Positions 12,597-17,752 of a stretch of DNA of 47,476 nt are shown one piece after another; within the stretch, counting starts at the first letter, position 1, and each line of letters begins with the position of its first letter. The notes beneath the pieces were generated by a model. It ran no database searches and was not told the DNA's origin. It saw only the letters and a program-made list of their open reading frames with translations. The position numbers were made by a program, and so were the translations under genes. The DNA comes from Gaiellales bacterium (GTDB lineage Bacteria; Actinomycetota; Thermoleophilia; RBG-16-64-13), in NCBI GenBank assembly GCA_012719395.1, contig JAAYAL010000051.1, positions 1 through 47,476 of the forward strand, given 5' to 3'.

Positions 12597-12947
12597 CTAC
12601 CCCACCACCTGCGCCCTCACCTCGGTGGCGAGCTCGCGGGAGGAGGCCGCGCCACACCCATCCTGCATCTCGTCCTGTACCTCCGCCTTGGCCTCCAGCA
12701 GCTCCGCGAGCAGAAGGCGGTGGTTGTTATCCAGCAGCGGGTCCATGTCCACGAGCGTCAGCAGGCTGTCGGCCGCCAGCAGAGCGGCCAACTCTGGATT
12801 CAGGCCCAAGATGCCGGCCACGGCGCGGTTGAGCAACTCCAGCGCCCGCTCGTGCCGGCGGGTCTGCCGCAGACCGGCCAGCTCGGCCAGGACCTCCCCC
12901 ACCTCCTGGAAGATCCGGACCAGATAGTCCTTGCGCTGGAACTCCAC
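12597..12947 (-). CDS. DUF6483-like small helical protein
   Basis: The 116-residue, all-helical, Leu/Ala-rich protein begins EFQRKDYLVRIFQEVGEVLA and has a TPR-like RRHERALELLNRAVAG helix pair and a DSLLTLVDMDPL segment. The pattern (QDY.hR.I.Q....hA.....R......ALE.h......hhGL) fits DUF6483, a family of unknown function found in several monoderm groups; the match is from memory and not confirmed. It starts with GTG and lies 21 bp downstream of the PEPCK/HprK-like gene on the same strand, so it is probably its operon partner. Confidence 0.65.
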   Translation of the reverse strand: MEFQRKDYLVRIFQEVGEVLAELAGLRQTRRHERALELLNRAVAGILGLNPELAALLAADSLLTLVDMDPLLDNNHRLLLAELLEAKAEVQDEMQDGCGAASSRELATEVRAQVVG

Positions 12948-12968
12948 GGCCTGGGCCCACGTCCCCGG

Positions 12969-14834
12969 CTATGCCGAGATCATCTCGAGGAGCACCCGGG
13001 CTGCCTCCTGCGGGCCCTGCATCTCCATGCCCGGCACGCCCAAACGCGTGCGCAGCTGGCCCACGAAGATCCCGCGGGCGAAGGCCGCCTCAAACACGCG
13101 TTGGGCCAAGGACTCGTGCAGGTCGCGGTACTGGGGCGGGCCGAAGATGTTGGCGAAGTAGCTGTGCACCAACCCCGTAGCCGTGGTGGTTCCCTTTGCC
13201 ATGGCCGCGCCGGCGCGGAAGACGTCCAGGGCCTGGTCCACCGTCTCCAATCGCTCCACCACCGGCCGCTCGGCGTCCACGGCCTCGTAATTGTTGGCGT
13301 AGAGCAGGAAATCCACCGGATAGCCCTGCAGCACGTCGTGGAGGGTGGTCACCGGCAGCACCACGCGGGCGTTCACCTTCTGCGGGCTCATGATGACCGC
13401 GCGGTCGATCTGGCCAAAGGCGTAACCGCCGCCCAGATCGTCCAGGCGCACGAAGGCACCGATCTCCGTGCCGTAGCCCAGCACCCGGCCCTCGTCGTCC
13501 ACCTCCAGTGAACCCATATCGTCCGCCACTATCCGCATGTCCCGGATAAACTCGCTGCCCAGACTGCGGAAGGCCTCCAACGATTCCGACTTGCCGGTGG
13601 CCGTGTCCCCCAGGATCAGCACCGTGGCTTCCTGCCCGCTCTTGAGCACCACCCGCACCATGGCGCCGTGGAAAGGCATGAGGCCGCGCTTCATGGCCAC
13701 GATATTGTGCAGCGTGAGGATCATCTTCTTGAGGTAGCCGAAGTACCCAAAACGATCCTCGGCCGAGATGGCAGCGGCAAGCAGACCGGTCTCCTCGTCG
13801 TCGTGGAAGACGGTGGGGAGATCGCCCAGCTGCCACATGGTCTCCGGGGCCGCCCCATACACGAAGACCGCATCCGGCCCGGCCGCCACCTGTTCGTCCG
13901 AGGCAAGTTCGAACAGGTTGGCCAACGAGCAGCCCAGCCCTATGAAACTCTGGTGGAAGTAGGTGTTGATGAGCAGGGGCCCCACCGCCGCCGGGTAGCA
14001 CAGCCACTCCTGGCTGCTGAGGCGCAGGTCGGCCAGCGGGTTGCGATCTACGCGCTGGAACTGCCCGGTACGGGTATTGGTGGGCGGATCAATGATCATG
14101 GGTGGCGCGATCCACACGTGACGGATGAAGGGGACCGCCCCCAAGGTCTCCTGGTACACGGGAGGCAGGGGGCAATCCACGTGCACCGCGATGAGGCCCA
14201 CATCGCAGCCCGCCGCCACCTGCCGGTAGATGCGGGGGTGGTTGCCGGTGATGTTCTCGCACACGTCGCGGTAGTAGGAGCGAACGGTATGGGTAAGGCT
14301 TTCGATGGTGGAGTTGAACGCGCGGTAGGGCCGGCGCTCCCAGCCGGTGGGGCCAGGCGGGGAATGGAGGATCATGAAACGGTCGAAGGCACGCCAGTAG
14401 TCATAGAGTCCTTCGGCGAACTCGTAGAGGGCACGACGACCGGCCGGGTTGAGCAGGCCGGCGGCCAGGCGCCGAGCGCCTGGAGTGGCGCACTGCGGCT
14501 CCGCTGGATCCATCTCCCCGCTGCCGGCCGGGGTCTCCGCCACGGGCGCGGACGGTACCCCGCCGGCCACCTCATCCAGCGTCTGCGCCCCCAGCGCGGA
14601 CAGGAGGGAAATGAGATCCGACTCCGCATCGCAGGCCTGGGTGGTACTGGGGGCGTCAGAAAGACCCAGAGGCGCCAGCAGCGGCGACTCCTGCCGGCGC
14701 AGCTGCGTCAGGTAGAGACGAACCGCACCTTGAAAGACCGCGCTGGCGGACAACTCCGCCGTCGTGGAGCAAATGGCGCCATCGGTGTGAATGATGATCT
14801 GGTTGCCTTCTTTGAAGGACCGCTTGACCTGCAT
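12969..14834 (-). CDS. PEPCK/HPr-kinase superfamily P-loop protein, unknown substrate
   Basis: The 621-residue protein has a large unrecognised N-terminal half (1-380). The C-terminal half carries the landmark order of the PEPCK/HprK nucleotide-binding fold: MPFHGAMVRV at about 386-395, P-loop LGDTATGKSES at about 408-418, VADD at about 436-439 (metal site), EIGAF at about 457-461 (cf. the E-x-G of PEP carboxykinases) and AKGTTTATG near 546-554. It probably binds ATP and phosphorylates something, but the usual PEPCK substrate motifs are not intact, so calling it PEPCK or HprK would be wrong. ATG 14834 has GGAGG 8 nt upstream; a GTG at 14849 is the alternative. It is followed closely by the DUF6483-like gene. 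Confidence 0.72.
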   Translation of the reverse strand: MQVKRSFKEGNQIIIHTDGAICSTTAELSASAVFQGAVRLYLTQLRRQESPLLAPLGLSDAPSTTQACDAESDLISLLSALGAQTLDEVAGGVPSAPVAETPAGSGEMDPAEPQCATPGARRLAAGLLNPAGRRALYEFAEGLYDYWRAFDRFMILHSPPGPTGWERRPYRAFNSTIESLTHTVRSYYRDVCENITGNHPRIYRQVAAGCDVGLIAVHVDCPLPPVYQETLGAVPFIRHVWIAPPMIIDPPTNTRTGQFQRVDRNPLADLRLSSQEWLCYPAAVGPLLINTYFHQSFIGLGCSLANLFELASDEQVAAGPDAVFVYGAAPETMWQLGDLPTVFHDDEETGLLAAAISAEDRFGYFGYLKKMILTLHNIVAMKRGLMPFHGAMVRVVLKSGQEATVLILGDTATGKSESLEAFRSLGSEFIRDMRIVADDMGSLEVDDEGRVLGYGTEIGAFVRLDDLGGGYAFGQIDRAVIMSPQKVNARVVLPVTTLHDVLQGYPVDFLLYANNYEAVDAERPVVERLETVDQALDVFRAGAAMAKGTTTATGLVHSYFANIFGPPQYRDLHESLAQRVFEAAFARGIFVGQLRTRLGVPGMEMQGPQEAARVLLEMISA

Positions 14835-14941
14835 GCGCCTGGCCTCCACTCCTCGCTCGGGGCATAGTCGCTAAGAAGGATAGTGCATGAACGACCGACC
14901 CATCATCCCGGCACCATCGCCCGAGGCTCATCCCCCCCCCA

Positions 14942-14989: not shown

Positions 14990-15021
14990 CCTCCTTACAG
15001 CATCTCCTCCTTACAGCATCT
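14990..15021. repeat. Tandem 16-bp duplication over the nitrilase stop codon
   Basis: The unit CCTCCTTACAGCATCT occurs twice in immediate succession (14990-15005 and 15006-15021). On the minus strand each copy reads ATG CTG TAA followed by GGAGG, so the last two codons, the stop and a Shine-Dalgarno-like sequence are duplicated. The extra copy lies just after the real stop. Confidence 0.9.
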
Positions 15022-15955
15022 GATGCCCTTCGCGCAGCAACTCCTCCGGTGTTGACGGCGCGTTGCCCTCCAGTTCCTTGAAGACCGGCGCCTCACAGAG
15101 ACCGCCCAGGTAGCACTTGTCCAGGGGCACGCCCTCCTGGCGGAAGGTCCGTACCATCTTGAGCAGCGGGAAGCAGCCGGCGAAGCCCTTCTCCCGCGCC
15201 AGCCTCACGTCATCCATGTTGAGCGTGGCCACCACGTACGAATCCGTCTCGCCCAACTCCTCCACGATCCGGCCCTCCGGGTCGCAGATGCAAGAGTGGC
15301 CCATAGCGATGGGCGCCGGGTGGTTGACGGAGACAAAGAAGCACTGGTTCTCGATGGCCCGGGTCTGCACCACCGGCACCAGGTTGCGCACATTCCCGAT
15401 CCAGTGCGGCTGCAGAGCCGGCTTCAGCAGCAACTCGGCGCCGTTGAGAGCCAGGTTCCGCGCCACCTCCGGCACGTGGGCGTCCGCGCAAATCATGAGC
15501 CCCACCGTCCCGATGCCTTCGATGTGGTACACGGGGAACTCGCGACCGGGCTTGGAGGGCTCCATGGGGCGCGGGATGAAGATCTTGCGATACTTCATCA
15601 CTATCTCGCCCTTGGGTGAGATGAGCATGGCGGCGTTATAGAAACCTTCTTCGTCCGGGACCCTCTCCAGCATAGAGCCGGGCACCAGCCAGATGCCCAG
15701 CTCCTGCGCCTTGGCACAGAACAGGTCAGTCATGGGGCCGGGGATGGTCTCCGCCAGTTCGTCCATGTGCAGCGGGTCCATGCCGTCGATGTAGATCTCG
15801 GGCGCCACCACCAGGTTGATGTGGGGATTGATGTGGCACATGGTGTCCAGGTAGAAGGCCATCTTGCCCCAGTGCTCGCGCTTGCGGGCCTCCAGGTCAG
15901 GATTCGCGCTGGTGGAGGCGATCTGCAGCATCGCCACGTTGAGGTACCGGCTCAT
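15011..15955 (-). CDS. Carbon-nitrogen hydrolase (nitrilase superfamily)
   Basis: The cytosolic 314-residue hydrolase has a complete catalytic triad: Glu53 in VVAPEIY, Lys124 in MKYRKIFIPR and Cys156 in GLMICADAH. Such enzymes cleave amides, carbamoyl compounds or nitriles. The GHSCICDPEGRIV segment and the C-terminal extension after residue 260 are reminiscent of amidase-type members rather than true nitrilases, but the substrate is open. The start ATG 15955 has a GAGGGGG Shine-Dalgarno 6 nt upstream. It appears monocistronic, between the YgjP-like gene (249 bp upstream) and a hairpin. Confidence 0.87.
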   Translation of the reverse strand: MSRYLNVAMLQIASTSANPDLEARKREHWGKMAFYLDTMCHINPHINLVVAPEIYIDGMDPLHMDELAETIPGPMTDLFCAKAQELGIWLVPGSMLERVPDEEGFYNAAMLISPKGEIVMKYRKIFIPRPMEPSKPGREFPVYHIEGIGTVGLMICADAHVPEVARNLALNGAELLLKPALQPHWIGNVRNLVPVVQTRAIENQCFFVSVNHPAPIAMGHSCICDPEGRIVEELGETDSYVVATLNMDDVRLAREKGFAGCFPLLKMVRTFRQEGVPLDKCYLGGLCEAPVFKELEGNAPSTPEELLREGHQML

Positions 15956-16204: not shown

Positions 16205-16957
16205 CTACACGGAGGGCGGCAGCCTCACCCAGTCCGGCAGGGCGGCCCAGGCATCGCGCAGTAGCCGGCGATTCGTATCGCAGAGCGGGTCGTGCCGCCG
16301 CACGAGCGACCAAAAGGCCGGTGAGTGATCCAGGCGCACGGTGTGGCACAGCTCGTGCACCAGCACGGACGCCGTCAGTTCCGGCGCCAGCAGCAGGAGC
16401 GCGGCATTCAGGCTGACGTTGCCGCGCCGGGAGCAGCTGCCCCACCTGGTGCGCTGCAGGCGGATGGAAACCTCCCGCACGCTGAAGCCGCCCTCGTCGG
16501 CCAACCTCCGCACCCACGGCGCCAGTTCCTCTCGCCCCGCACCCACCAGCCAACGGCGCAGCGCCGTCCGGCAGGCCATGACATCATGGCAGGCGCCACC
16601 GAGGACGAGCCGGGGCTCCACTCCCGCCCGGCCGGCCTCTCGATAGGTGACCGTCGCCGCAGGTGATCCGCGATACTCCACCGCCCACCTGCGGCCGATG
16701 GCCGCCAGCTCGATGTGCTGCGGCAGCGCGGGCCCACCCATCACACCCCCTTTAACTTCCCCCTGCGCTTCCGCCTGCATCTGCAGCCGCCGCCGGGTAC
16801 GCTCCACCCAGGCCGCCTTCGGCTCAAGCAGGGGAGGGAGCACTCGTCGATCGAAGCCGCGCGGGACCACCACTTCCACCTCGCCCCGCGCGGAGACTAC
16901 CAGCCGCACGCGGCGCGCCCGGTCACTCTCCCGGATAGAGTAGTGGAATCCCGTCAT
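16205..16957 (-). CDS. YgjP-like (DUF45) zinc metallopeptidase
   Basis: The 250-residue protein starts with the beta-rich YgjP pattern (SIRESDRARRVRLVV, VVPRGF) and carries the metalloprotease signature VLVHELCHTVRLDHSPAFW: HExxH plus a third His four residues later and the H.P.FW of the family. RLQRTRWGSCS upstream of it is the conserved GSCS strand. Proteins of this SprT/WLM-like group are cytosolic and of unknown target, sometimes next to restriction systems, which are absent here. The ATG at 16957 has AAGGG 6 nt upstream; the longer frame is rejected. Confidence 0.88.
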   Translation of the reverse strand: MTGFHYSIRESDRARRVRLVVSARGEVEVVVPRGFDRRVLPPLLEPKAAWVERTRRRLQMQAEAQGEVKGGVMGGPALPQHIELAAIGRRWAVEYRGSPAATVTYREAGRAGVEPRLVLGGACHDVMACRTALRRWLVGAGREELAPWVRRLADEGGFSVREVSIRLQRTRWGSCSRRGNVSLNAALLLLAPELTASVLVHELCHTVRLDHSPAFWSLVRRHDPLCDTNRRLLRDAWAALPDWVRLPPSV

Positions 16958-17284
16958 GAAGCCCTTTTCGGCACCGGAGCAGGTTCGCCTCGTTCGCAGG
17001 GTGGCCCGGCCCACAACGTCCGCCCGGCTCGCCGCTTCCGCCTCGTGCGCCCGGTCACATCCATCAGGTCCGCCGACAGTCTAGCCGGGAACAGGGTTTC
17101 ACGTTGCATGCCGCGGGGCGGAGTGCGTAGACGTGGCCCGCGCACCCCAGCCAACTACCACCTCCTGTTAAGGCAGCACCGGCCTCAACTCCTTCGGGCT
17201 GACCGCCGACGGGAGGCCCGCACTGGCTCCGCAGGGTTTGCGATTGGCGCATGGCCGGGGAGGAGGCAAAGGAGGAGGTGGACG
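16958..17284. other. 327-bp divergent intergenic region
   Basis: It lies between the divergent YgjP-like and DUF3795-like genes and should hold promoters for both. Only the AGGAGGTGG Shine-Dalgarno at about 17273-17281 is clear. I see no convincing -35/-10 pair, RNA gene or repeat. Confidence 0.5.
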
Positions 17285-17752
17285 ATGAACGACATGGGAC
17301 GCCCAGAAAGCTACGAGGAGGTCGTGGGACGACTGGCCCCCTGCGGTCTGGACTGCAGCCGCTGCTACGCAAGGGAGGGCGGCGAGGTCCAGGGCGCGGC
17401 CGTGGCACTACGGGATGCGCTGGCCGGCTTCGAGCACATGGCTCCCCGCATCGTAGGCCGCTATCCCGCCCTCGAACACTACGATCACTTCCGCGAGGTG
17501 TTGGACCTGGCCTGCGGCGGCGGGTGCCCGGACTGCCGCAGCGGCGGCCCGAATCTTCCCTTCTGTGCCGCCCGCACCTGCTTCCGAGAAAAGAGCGTGG
17601 ATTTCTGCTTCCAGTGTGACGAATACCCCTGTGAGCACAACAACTACCCGGAGAACATGGCCGTGCGCTGGCGCCGCCACAACGACCGTATGCGCGAGGT
17701 GGGCGCGGTGCAGTTCTACAGGGAACAGCGCCGCCTGCCGCGCTACGAGTAG
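17285..17752 (+). CDS. DUF3795-like cysteine-rich protein
   Basis: The 155-residue cytosolic protein contains three Cys groups: APCGLDCSRCYA at the start, a central CGGGCPDCRSGG, and FCAARTCFREK with FCFQCDEYPCEHN. This arrangement (a CG.DC..C near the start and later C..C pairs) fits DUF3795-type proteins found mainly in anaerobes, thought to bind metal; no function is established. The ATG 17285 has AGGAGGTGG just upstream. It stands alone, convergent with the decayed M14 peptidase gene. Confidence 0.8.
   Translation: MNDMGRPESYEEVVGRLAPCGLDCSRCYAREGGEVQGAAVALRDALAGFEHMAPRIVGRYPALEHYDHFREVLDLACGGGCPDCRSGGPNLPFCAARTCFREKSVDFCFQCDEYPCEHNNYPENMAVRWRRHNDRMREVGAVQFYREQRRLPRYE

Follow-up and report, generated by a model that had tools for sequence, protein, structure and literature searches.

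A deeply divergent protein family with a predicted phosphoenolpyruvate carboxykinase fold, found in a Gaiellales bacterium

INTRODUCTION

Phosphoenolpyruvate (PEP) carboxykinase (PEPCK) connects the metabolism of sugars to that of organic acids through the addition or removal of CO2. The ATP-dependent enzymes (PF01293) are represented by the Thermus structure 2pc9 and by PckA of Escherichia coli, and the GTP-dependent enzymes make up PF00821. HPr kinase/phosphorylase (HprK; PF07475, TIGR00679; structure 1ko7) is built on the same fold. Here we describe a locus in a 47,476-nucleotide contig of a Gaiellales bacterium (JAAYAL010000051.1; the whole analyzed stretch is called the window). It encodes a protein, designated PEPCK-like below, that resembles ATP-PEPCK in the predicted two-domain fold of residues 222 to 626 and in its metal, P-loop, and substrate residues. 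However, it is only about 16% identical to ATP-PEPCK, falls below the Pfam and NCBIfam cut-offs, and carries some 220 additional N-terminal residues. GTP-PEPCK has the same fold and shares the invariant residues, but the protein gave no PF00821 match in a Pfam search.

RESULTS

Two open reading frames (ORFs) lie side by side on the reverse strand of the window. The larger is open as far as a GTG at 14849, giving 626 amino acids (12969 to 14849), but its homologs, which are 40 to 76% identical to it, begin near Met6, so the conserved ATG at 14834 is the likelier start (12969 to 14834; 621 amino acids). Residue numbering throughout follows the 626-residue form. The second ORF (12597 to 12947, reverse strand), 21 bp downstream, encodes a 116-amino-acid helical protein of an unplaced family. 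The closest relatives of both are found in genome G002, at 69% identity for the PEPCK-like protein and 57% for the 116-residue protein, which has no other known homolog, and this homology indicates that both ORFs are real genes. An earlier note on this DNA had described the two-gene unit, its 21-bp spacing, and the 621-residue start, all of which are present as it described. A carbon-nitrogen hydrolase gene (15011 to 15955) lies upstream, separated by 161 bp from the PEPCK-like ORF, and was not found adjoining the G002 copy. Farther along the window, a 345-residue ORF whose C-terminal half matches DUF3795 (16715 to 17752, forward strand) overlaps an ORF for a YgjP-like metallopeptidase on the opposite strand (16205 to 17014).

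The PEPCK-like family is too distant for current family models and misses every curated cut-off. The protein scored 11.6 bits against PF01293 (cut-off, 26.5), 11.5 bits against PF07475 (Hpr_kinase_C; cut-off, 33.3), and 21.4 bits against the NCBIfam PEPCK model NF006821 (cut-off, 369), which matched 22 of 23 family members weakly. When profiles were compared, the family matched ATP-PEPCK with an E value of 3e-6 and a second PEPCK type with an E value of 1.9e-9, and similarity to the GTP-type sequences was weak. A single-sequence search with the PEPCK-like protein retrieved no PDB chain, and a profile search gave chance-level matches only.

A clearer picture came from the predicted structure. 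An AlphaFold2 model, built with an input alignment of 23 homologous sequences, had a pLDDT of 80.9 and a pTM of 0.81. The best 50 Foldseek matches in the PDB were all PEPCKs (best E value, 2.4e-12). VIA-align placed the model on the Thermus ATP-PEPCK chain 2pc9_D with a Z score of 21.2 over 345 aligned residues (3.5 Å, 16% identity), and GTP-PEPCK matched with Z scores of about 18 to 19. The aligned span, about residues 222 to 626, covers the whole PEPCK chain, N-terminal substrate domain included. Residues 222 to 626 are thus predicted to form a complete two-domain PEPCK fold that extends beyond the kinase core. HprK was not among the best 50 VIA-align rows, which proves nothing, because one domain can fill that list. 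The earlier note had proposed comparing a predicted structure with PEPCK and HprK, and AlphaFold2, Foldseek, and VIA-align together found the PEPCK fold.

The model divides the protein into three parts, all on the reverse strand. The substrate domain, delimited by VIA-align, comprises residues 222 to 368 (13746 to 14186) and includes R260, which one of two alignments puts opposite E. coli Arg65. The catalytic domain, assigned by profile comparison, Foldseek, and VIA-align, comprises residues 369 to 626 (12972 to 13745). Ahead of these lies an extra region, residues 6 to 221 (14187 to 14834), predicted to consist of a beta hairpin followed mostly by helices. The fold of this region is unplaced, and no Pfam or NCBIfam match fell within it, although ten of its residues are conserved in the family (C27, S36, Y149, W152, R153, R157, Y193, R194, N199, and R209). 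The earlier note had left an N-terminal region of about 380 residues unassigned; since the PEPCK fold spans residues 222 to 626, the unplaced part shrinks to about 220 residues, and the remainder is the PEPCK N-terminal domain.

We then compared active-site residues. A reference alignment of 11 PEPCKs, comprising ATP-type, GTP-type, and two further types from the same genome set, has few invariant residues: in L080 numbering, R66, Y201, G203, K206, H226, G247, K248, D262, D263, E276, N326, R328, and F407. In combined alignments, their counterparts in the PEPCK-like protein are, in the same order, R260, Y369, G371, K374, H394, G419, K420, D443, D444, E462, N493, R495, and F569. All 13 are invariant both among 19 diverse members of the family and across a broader set of 38, and R260 is the only one whose match depends on the aligner. 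A fourteenth position, G547, is common to the PEPCK-like family and 10 of the 11 PEPCKs. From what is established for E. coli PEPCK, the matched columns include its Mn ligands, P-loop lysine, and double Asp, as well as Tyr207 and Arg333, which bind PEP.

On the reverse strand, the motif Y369-F-G-Y-L-K374-K375 (13725 to 13745) corresponds to E. coli Tyr207, Lys212, and Lys213 by alignment and conservation. In the same alignments, H394 (13668 to 13670) falls at the metal ligand His232, D443-D444 (13518 to 13523) at the metal-binding Asp268 and Asp269, and N493-A-R495 (13365 to 13373) in the Arg333 region associated with PEP binding. The P-loop GDTATGKS occupies residues 414 to 421 (13587 to 13610), and E462 of the ExG landmark is encoded at 13464 to 13466. 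The metal, P-loop, and double-Asp residues K374/K375, H394, G419-K420-S421, and D443-D444 are invariant in the family. Y369 and N493-x-R495 match the E. coli Tyr207 and Arg333 positions in both alignments made; R260 is likewise invariant and is aligned to the PEPCK arginine (E. coli Arg65) in L-INS-i but not in E-INS-i. Two features depart from ATP-PEPCK. The P-loop, GDTATGKSE, is HprK-like, and the segment equivalent to the nucleotide-base-binding segment of E. coli PEPCK, residues 549 to 568 of the model, has a pLDDT below 50 and no clear alignment.

The earlier note had assigned the protein to the PEPCK/HprK superfamily from four ordered landmarks, H394, GDTATGKS (414 to 421), VADD (441 to 444), and E462-I-G. 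All are present in that order, with H394, G414, G419, K420, S421, D443, D444, E462, and G464 invariant in 38 homologs. That call, made from sequence alone, was right and its label fair; the architecture is that of PEPCK.

Genome searches with the PEPCK-like protein gave homologs in 9 of the 61 relatives, in 12 of 299 genomes from the class, and in 16 of 396 from the phylum, the last count including G308, whose protein is really another PEPCK type. Named contigs carrying homologs come from metagenome-assembled genomes (MAGs) whose titles read Deltaproteobacteria, Desulfurivibrio, or Phycisphaerae. Of 395 genomes in the phylum to which the Deltaproteobacteria MAG belongs, here called Desulfobacterota-type, 17 matched, one of them weakly. 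The family is patchy in both the phylum of the window and the Desulfobacterota-type genomes, with identities among homologs ranging from 76% down to about 40%. In a FastTree phylogeny, the proteins of G000 (the genome of the window) and G002 group among Desulfobacterota-type sequences and not with the f3 proteins, which belong to the same class as they do; as support for this grouping is 0.49, lateral transfer of the gene is no more than suggested. Two more PEPCK types, also divergent, are encoded by genomes of the same phylum (L093:1318-2979, L089:1354-2868, L090:1360-2883, and L092:1471-2970). The L093 type shows weak profile similarity to the PEPCK-like family, and DUF4914 (PF16260) is a weak match of a lactobacillus member of the family, so DUF4914 may also be PEPCK-like.

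That member, AYP99509.1 of Limosilactobacillus fermentum DR9 (569 amino acids), was the one relative that came up when the proteins of plasmid records were searched. It is annotated as phosphoenolpyruvate carboxykinase, an annotation that is not proof of function. Although only 33% identical to the PEPCK-like protein, it is a full-length member of the family (HMM E value, 8e-155) that keeps all the catalytic residues listed above. A family search linked the gene that follows it in no way to the 116-residue protein. On the 252-kb L. fermentum DR9 "plasmid" (CP033373.1), the homolog is surrounded by genes such as those for inorganic pyrophosphatase and replication-associated recombination protein A (L139, 82808 to 96205), and CP033373.1 may be chromosomal DNA misassigned as a plasmid. 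In Lactobacillus plantarum, overexpressed PEPCK, pyruvate carboxylase, and malic enzyme were credited with higher succinate (Tsuji 2013, as cited in PMC13224032).

The small downstream protein has a much narrower distribution. It occurs in 2 of the 61 relatives, G000 and G002, adjoining the PEPCK-like gene in both, and has no Pfam match above the cut-off and no NCBIfam match. The earlier note had likened it to DUF6483, but neither copy matched DUF6483 up to an E value of 10, in a search whose HMMER filters drop most weak matches. Nor did the suggestion of a dedicated pair hold up in the gene-neighborhood survey that the note had proposed: the pairing was observed in just two genomes, and other neighbors take the place of the small gene beside the remaining homologs. 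The 116-residue protein is a lineage-specific neighbor, at most accessory, and not a conserved partner.

The neighbors elsewhere, called partly by a simple script and not by a gene finder, are varied, and DUF2294/MpsC and the purine genes purE or purC recur more than the small gene does. Among 19 Desulfobacterota-type loci, 8 have a DUF2294/MpsC gene upstream, and these fall into two widely separated regions of the tree. The domain was identified by Pfam in L018, L124, L127, L128, and L130 (directly upstream at L127:6533-6928, L128:6335-6712, L130:5588-6022, L124:9348-9716, and L018:5265-5687) and by similarity to the L018 protein in L017, L020, and L021. The purE gene is directly downstream in L017, L018, L020, and L021 and, on a distant branch, in L125; a carbonic anhydrase gene is nearby in L020 and L124; and purC overlaps the PEPCK-like gene by 4 bp in several f3 genomes. 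Single cases include argH-argG (L070), genes for aspartate kinase and 3-dehydroquinate synthase II (L136), aroC and aroA on the opposite strand (L019), and a divergent purA (L135). Aspartate, CO2, or PEP is consumed by the products of some of these neighbors, a pattern that would fit an enzyme producing oxaloacetate but is a reading made after the fact. A bicarbonate theme based on the DUF2294/MpsC neighbor was rejected. Because mpsC of Staphylococcus aureus is dispensable for MpsAB function and is not collocated with mpsAB outside the staphylococci (PMC6689103), the presence of MpsC does not speak for CO2 chemistry.

We also asked whether the gene replaces a known one. Canonical PEPCK coexists with it in all f3 carriers tested and is present in 8 of 19 Desulfobacterota-type carriers versus 12 of 20 noncarriers, a mixed co-occurrence with no clear pattern of replacement. 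Replacement of PEP carboxylase was likewise rejected, because almost every genome tested, whether a carrier or a noncarrier, lacks PF00311. The purE and purC neighbors prompted the idea that PurK is replaced. No carrier tested had purK, but the gene is also absent from 17 of 18 noncarriers of the same phylum and from most noncarrying relatives with purE, and the idea fails because most noncarriers lack it too. Most relatives have purE and no recognizable purK, whether they carry the PEPCK-like gene or not, and almost none of the Desulfobacterota-type genomes tested has purK either. In G000 and G002, draft assemblies about 98% complete, neither ATP- nor GTP-PEPCK nor a PF00311 PEP carboxylase was found, and so the PEPCK-like protein could be the sole enzyme of these three kinds that connects PEP and oxaloacetate in them.

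DISCUSSION

Sequence comparison and the structural model indicate that the PEPCK-like family is a real and conserved branch, as yet unnamed, of the PEPCK superfamily and that its active site is apparently intact. The most probable function, in our judgment, is that of a nucleotide- and metal-dependent carboxykinase from a deeply divergent branch, interconverting PEP and oxaloacetate. NTP-Mg would bind at the P-loop and Mn at the Lys, His, and Asp residues, and the enzyme would interconvert oxaloacetate with PEP and CO2. The fold of residues 222 to 626 in the model and the conservation of the active-site residues were computed directly; an active enzyme, PEP/oxaloacetate as its substrate, its phosphate donor, and its direction are what we infer. 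The earlier note had called the substrate unknown. It is not wholly open, since the PEP/oxaloacetate and metal residues are kept and a full-length Limosilactobacillus homolog is annotated as PEPCK. The same note held that the protein is neither a normal PEPCK nor an HPr kinase. The PF01293 score below the cut-off bears out the first part and the whole two-domain PEPCK fold the second, but the protein is nonetheless a deeply divergent relative of PEPCK.

A carboxykinase or small-molecule kinase of PEPCK fold acting on something other than PEP/oxaloacetate is less likely, although it is the alternative that we take most seriously. It would account for the coexistence with canonical PEPCK in many genomes, for the roughly 220 extra residues combined with an HprK-like P-loop, and for neighbors outside the PEP node (purE, purC, and DUF2294/MpsC). 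Against it, the PEPCK substrate residues Y369, R495, and probably R260 are invariant, and the homolog from lactobacilli is annotated as PEPCK. A bolder form, a class of carboxykinases with a non-PEP/oxaloacetate substrate that would, for example, activate CO2 for purine carboxylation beside PurE and bridge PEPCK and HPr kinase in evolution, strikes us as rather improbable.

It is doubtful that the protein is an HprK-like protein kinase/phosphorylase with the 116-residue protein as its substrate or regulator. The stretch from His394 through the P-loop to VADD does resemble the HPr kinase core of 1ko7 (HG..V, GDTATGKSE, and VADD, with a P-loop of the GDSGxGKSE kind), and TIGR00679 weakly matches 6 of 23 members (best E value, 0.0019; L065, 16.0 of 240 bits), HprK models overall giving weak matches in 6 to 8 of the 23. 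However, more members are matched by PEPCK profiles than by HprK profiles, and all HprK scores are below the cut-offs. Unlike HprK, the PEPCK-like protein has the N-terminal substrate domain of PEPCK and its substrate residues, within a whole two-domain PEPCK fold, and nearly all homologs lack the small protein as a neighbor.

More doubtful still is a purine-synthesis carboxykinase that would make activated CO2 or N5-carboxyaminoimidazole ribonucleotide (N5-CAIR) for PurE in place of PurK. The purE genes that directly follow the PEPCK-like gene on two distant branches, the purC overlap in f3, the carbonic anhydrase genes in L020 and L124, and the lack of purK in every carrier tested would fit such a role. 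Yet most homologs are not near pur genes, and with purK generally absent from noncarriers too, nothing needs replacing. PurK is also an ATP-grasp protein, whereas the PEPCK-like protein has a predicted PEPCK fold and gave no TIGR01161 match in an NCBIfam search. Least likely of all is a degenerate, noncatalytic homolog with a structural or regulatory role, as deep divergence and an extra N-terminal region might suggest, because the catalytic residues are invariant down to about 40% identity and kept in the 33% identical L. fermentum homolog, which is unexpected for a pseudoenzyme.

If the PEPCK-like protein is indeed a PEPCK, it represents a further branch missed by family models, and metabolic reconstructions that report no PEPCK in many uncultured anaerobes, and possibly in lactobacilli, would therefore be wrong at the PEP-oxaloacetate node. 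Its combination of a PEPCK architecture with an HprK-like P-loop also makes it a useful sequence for asking how this fold gave rise to HPr kinase.
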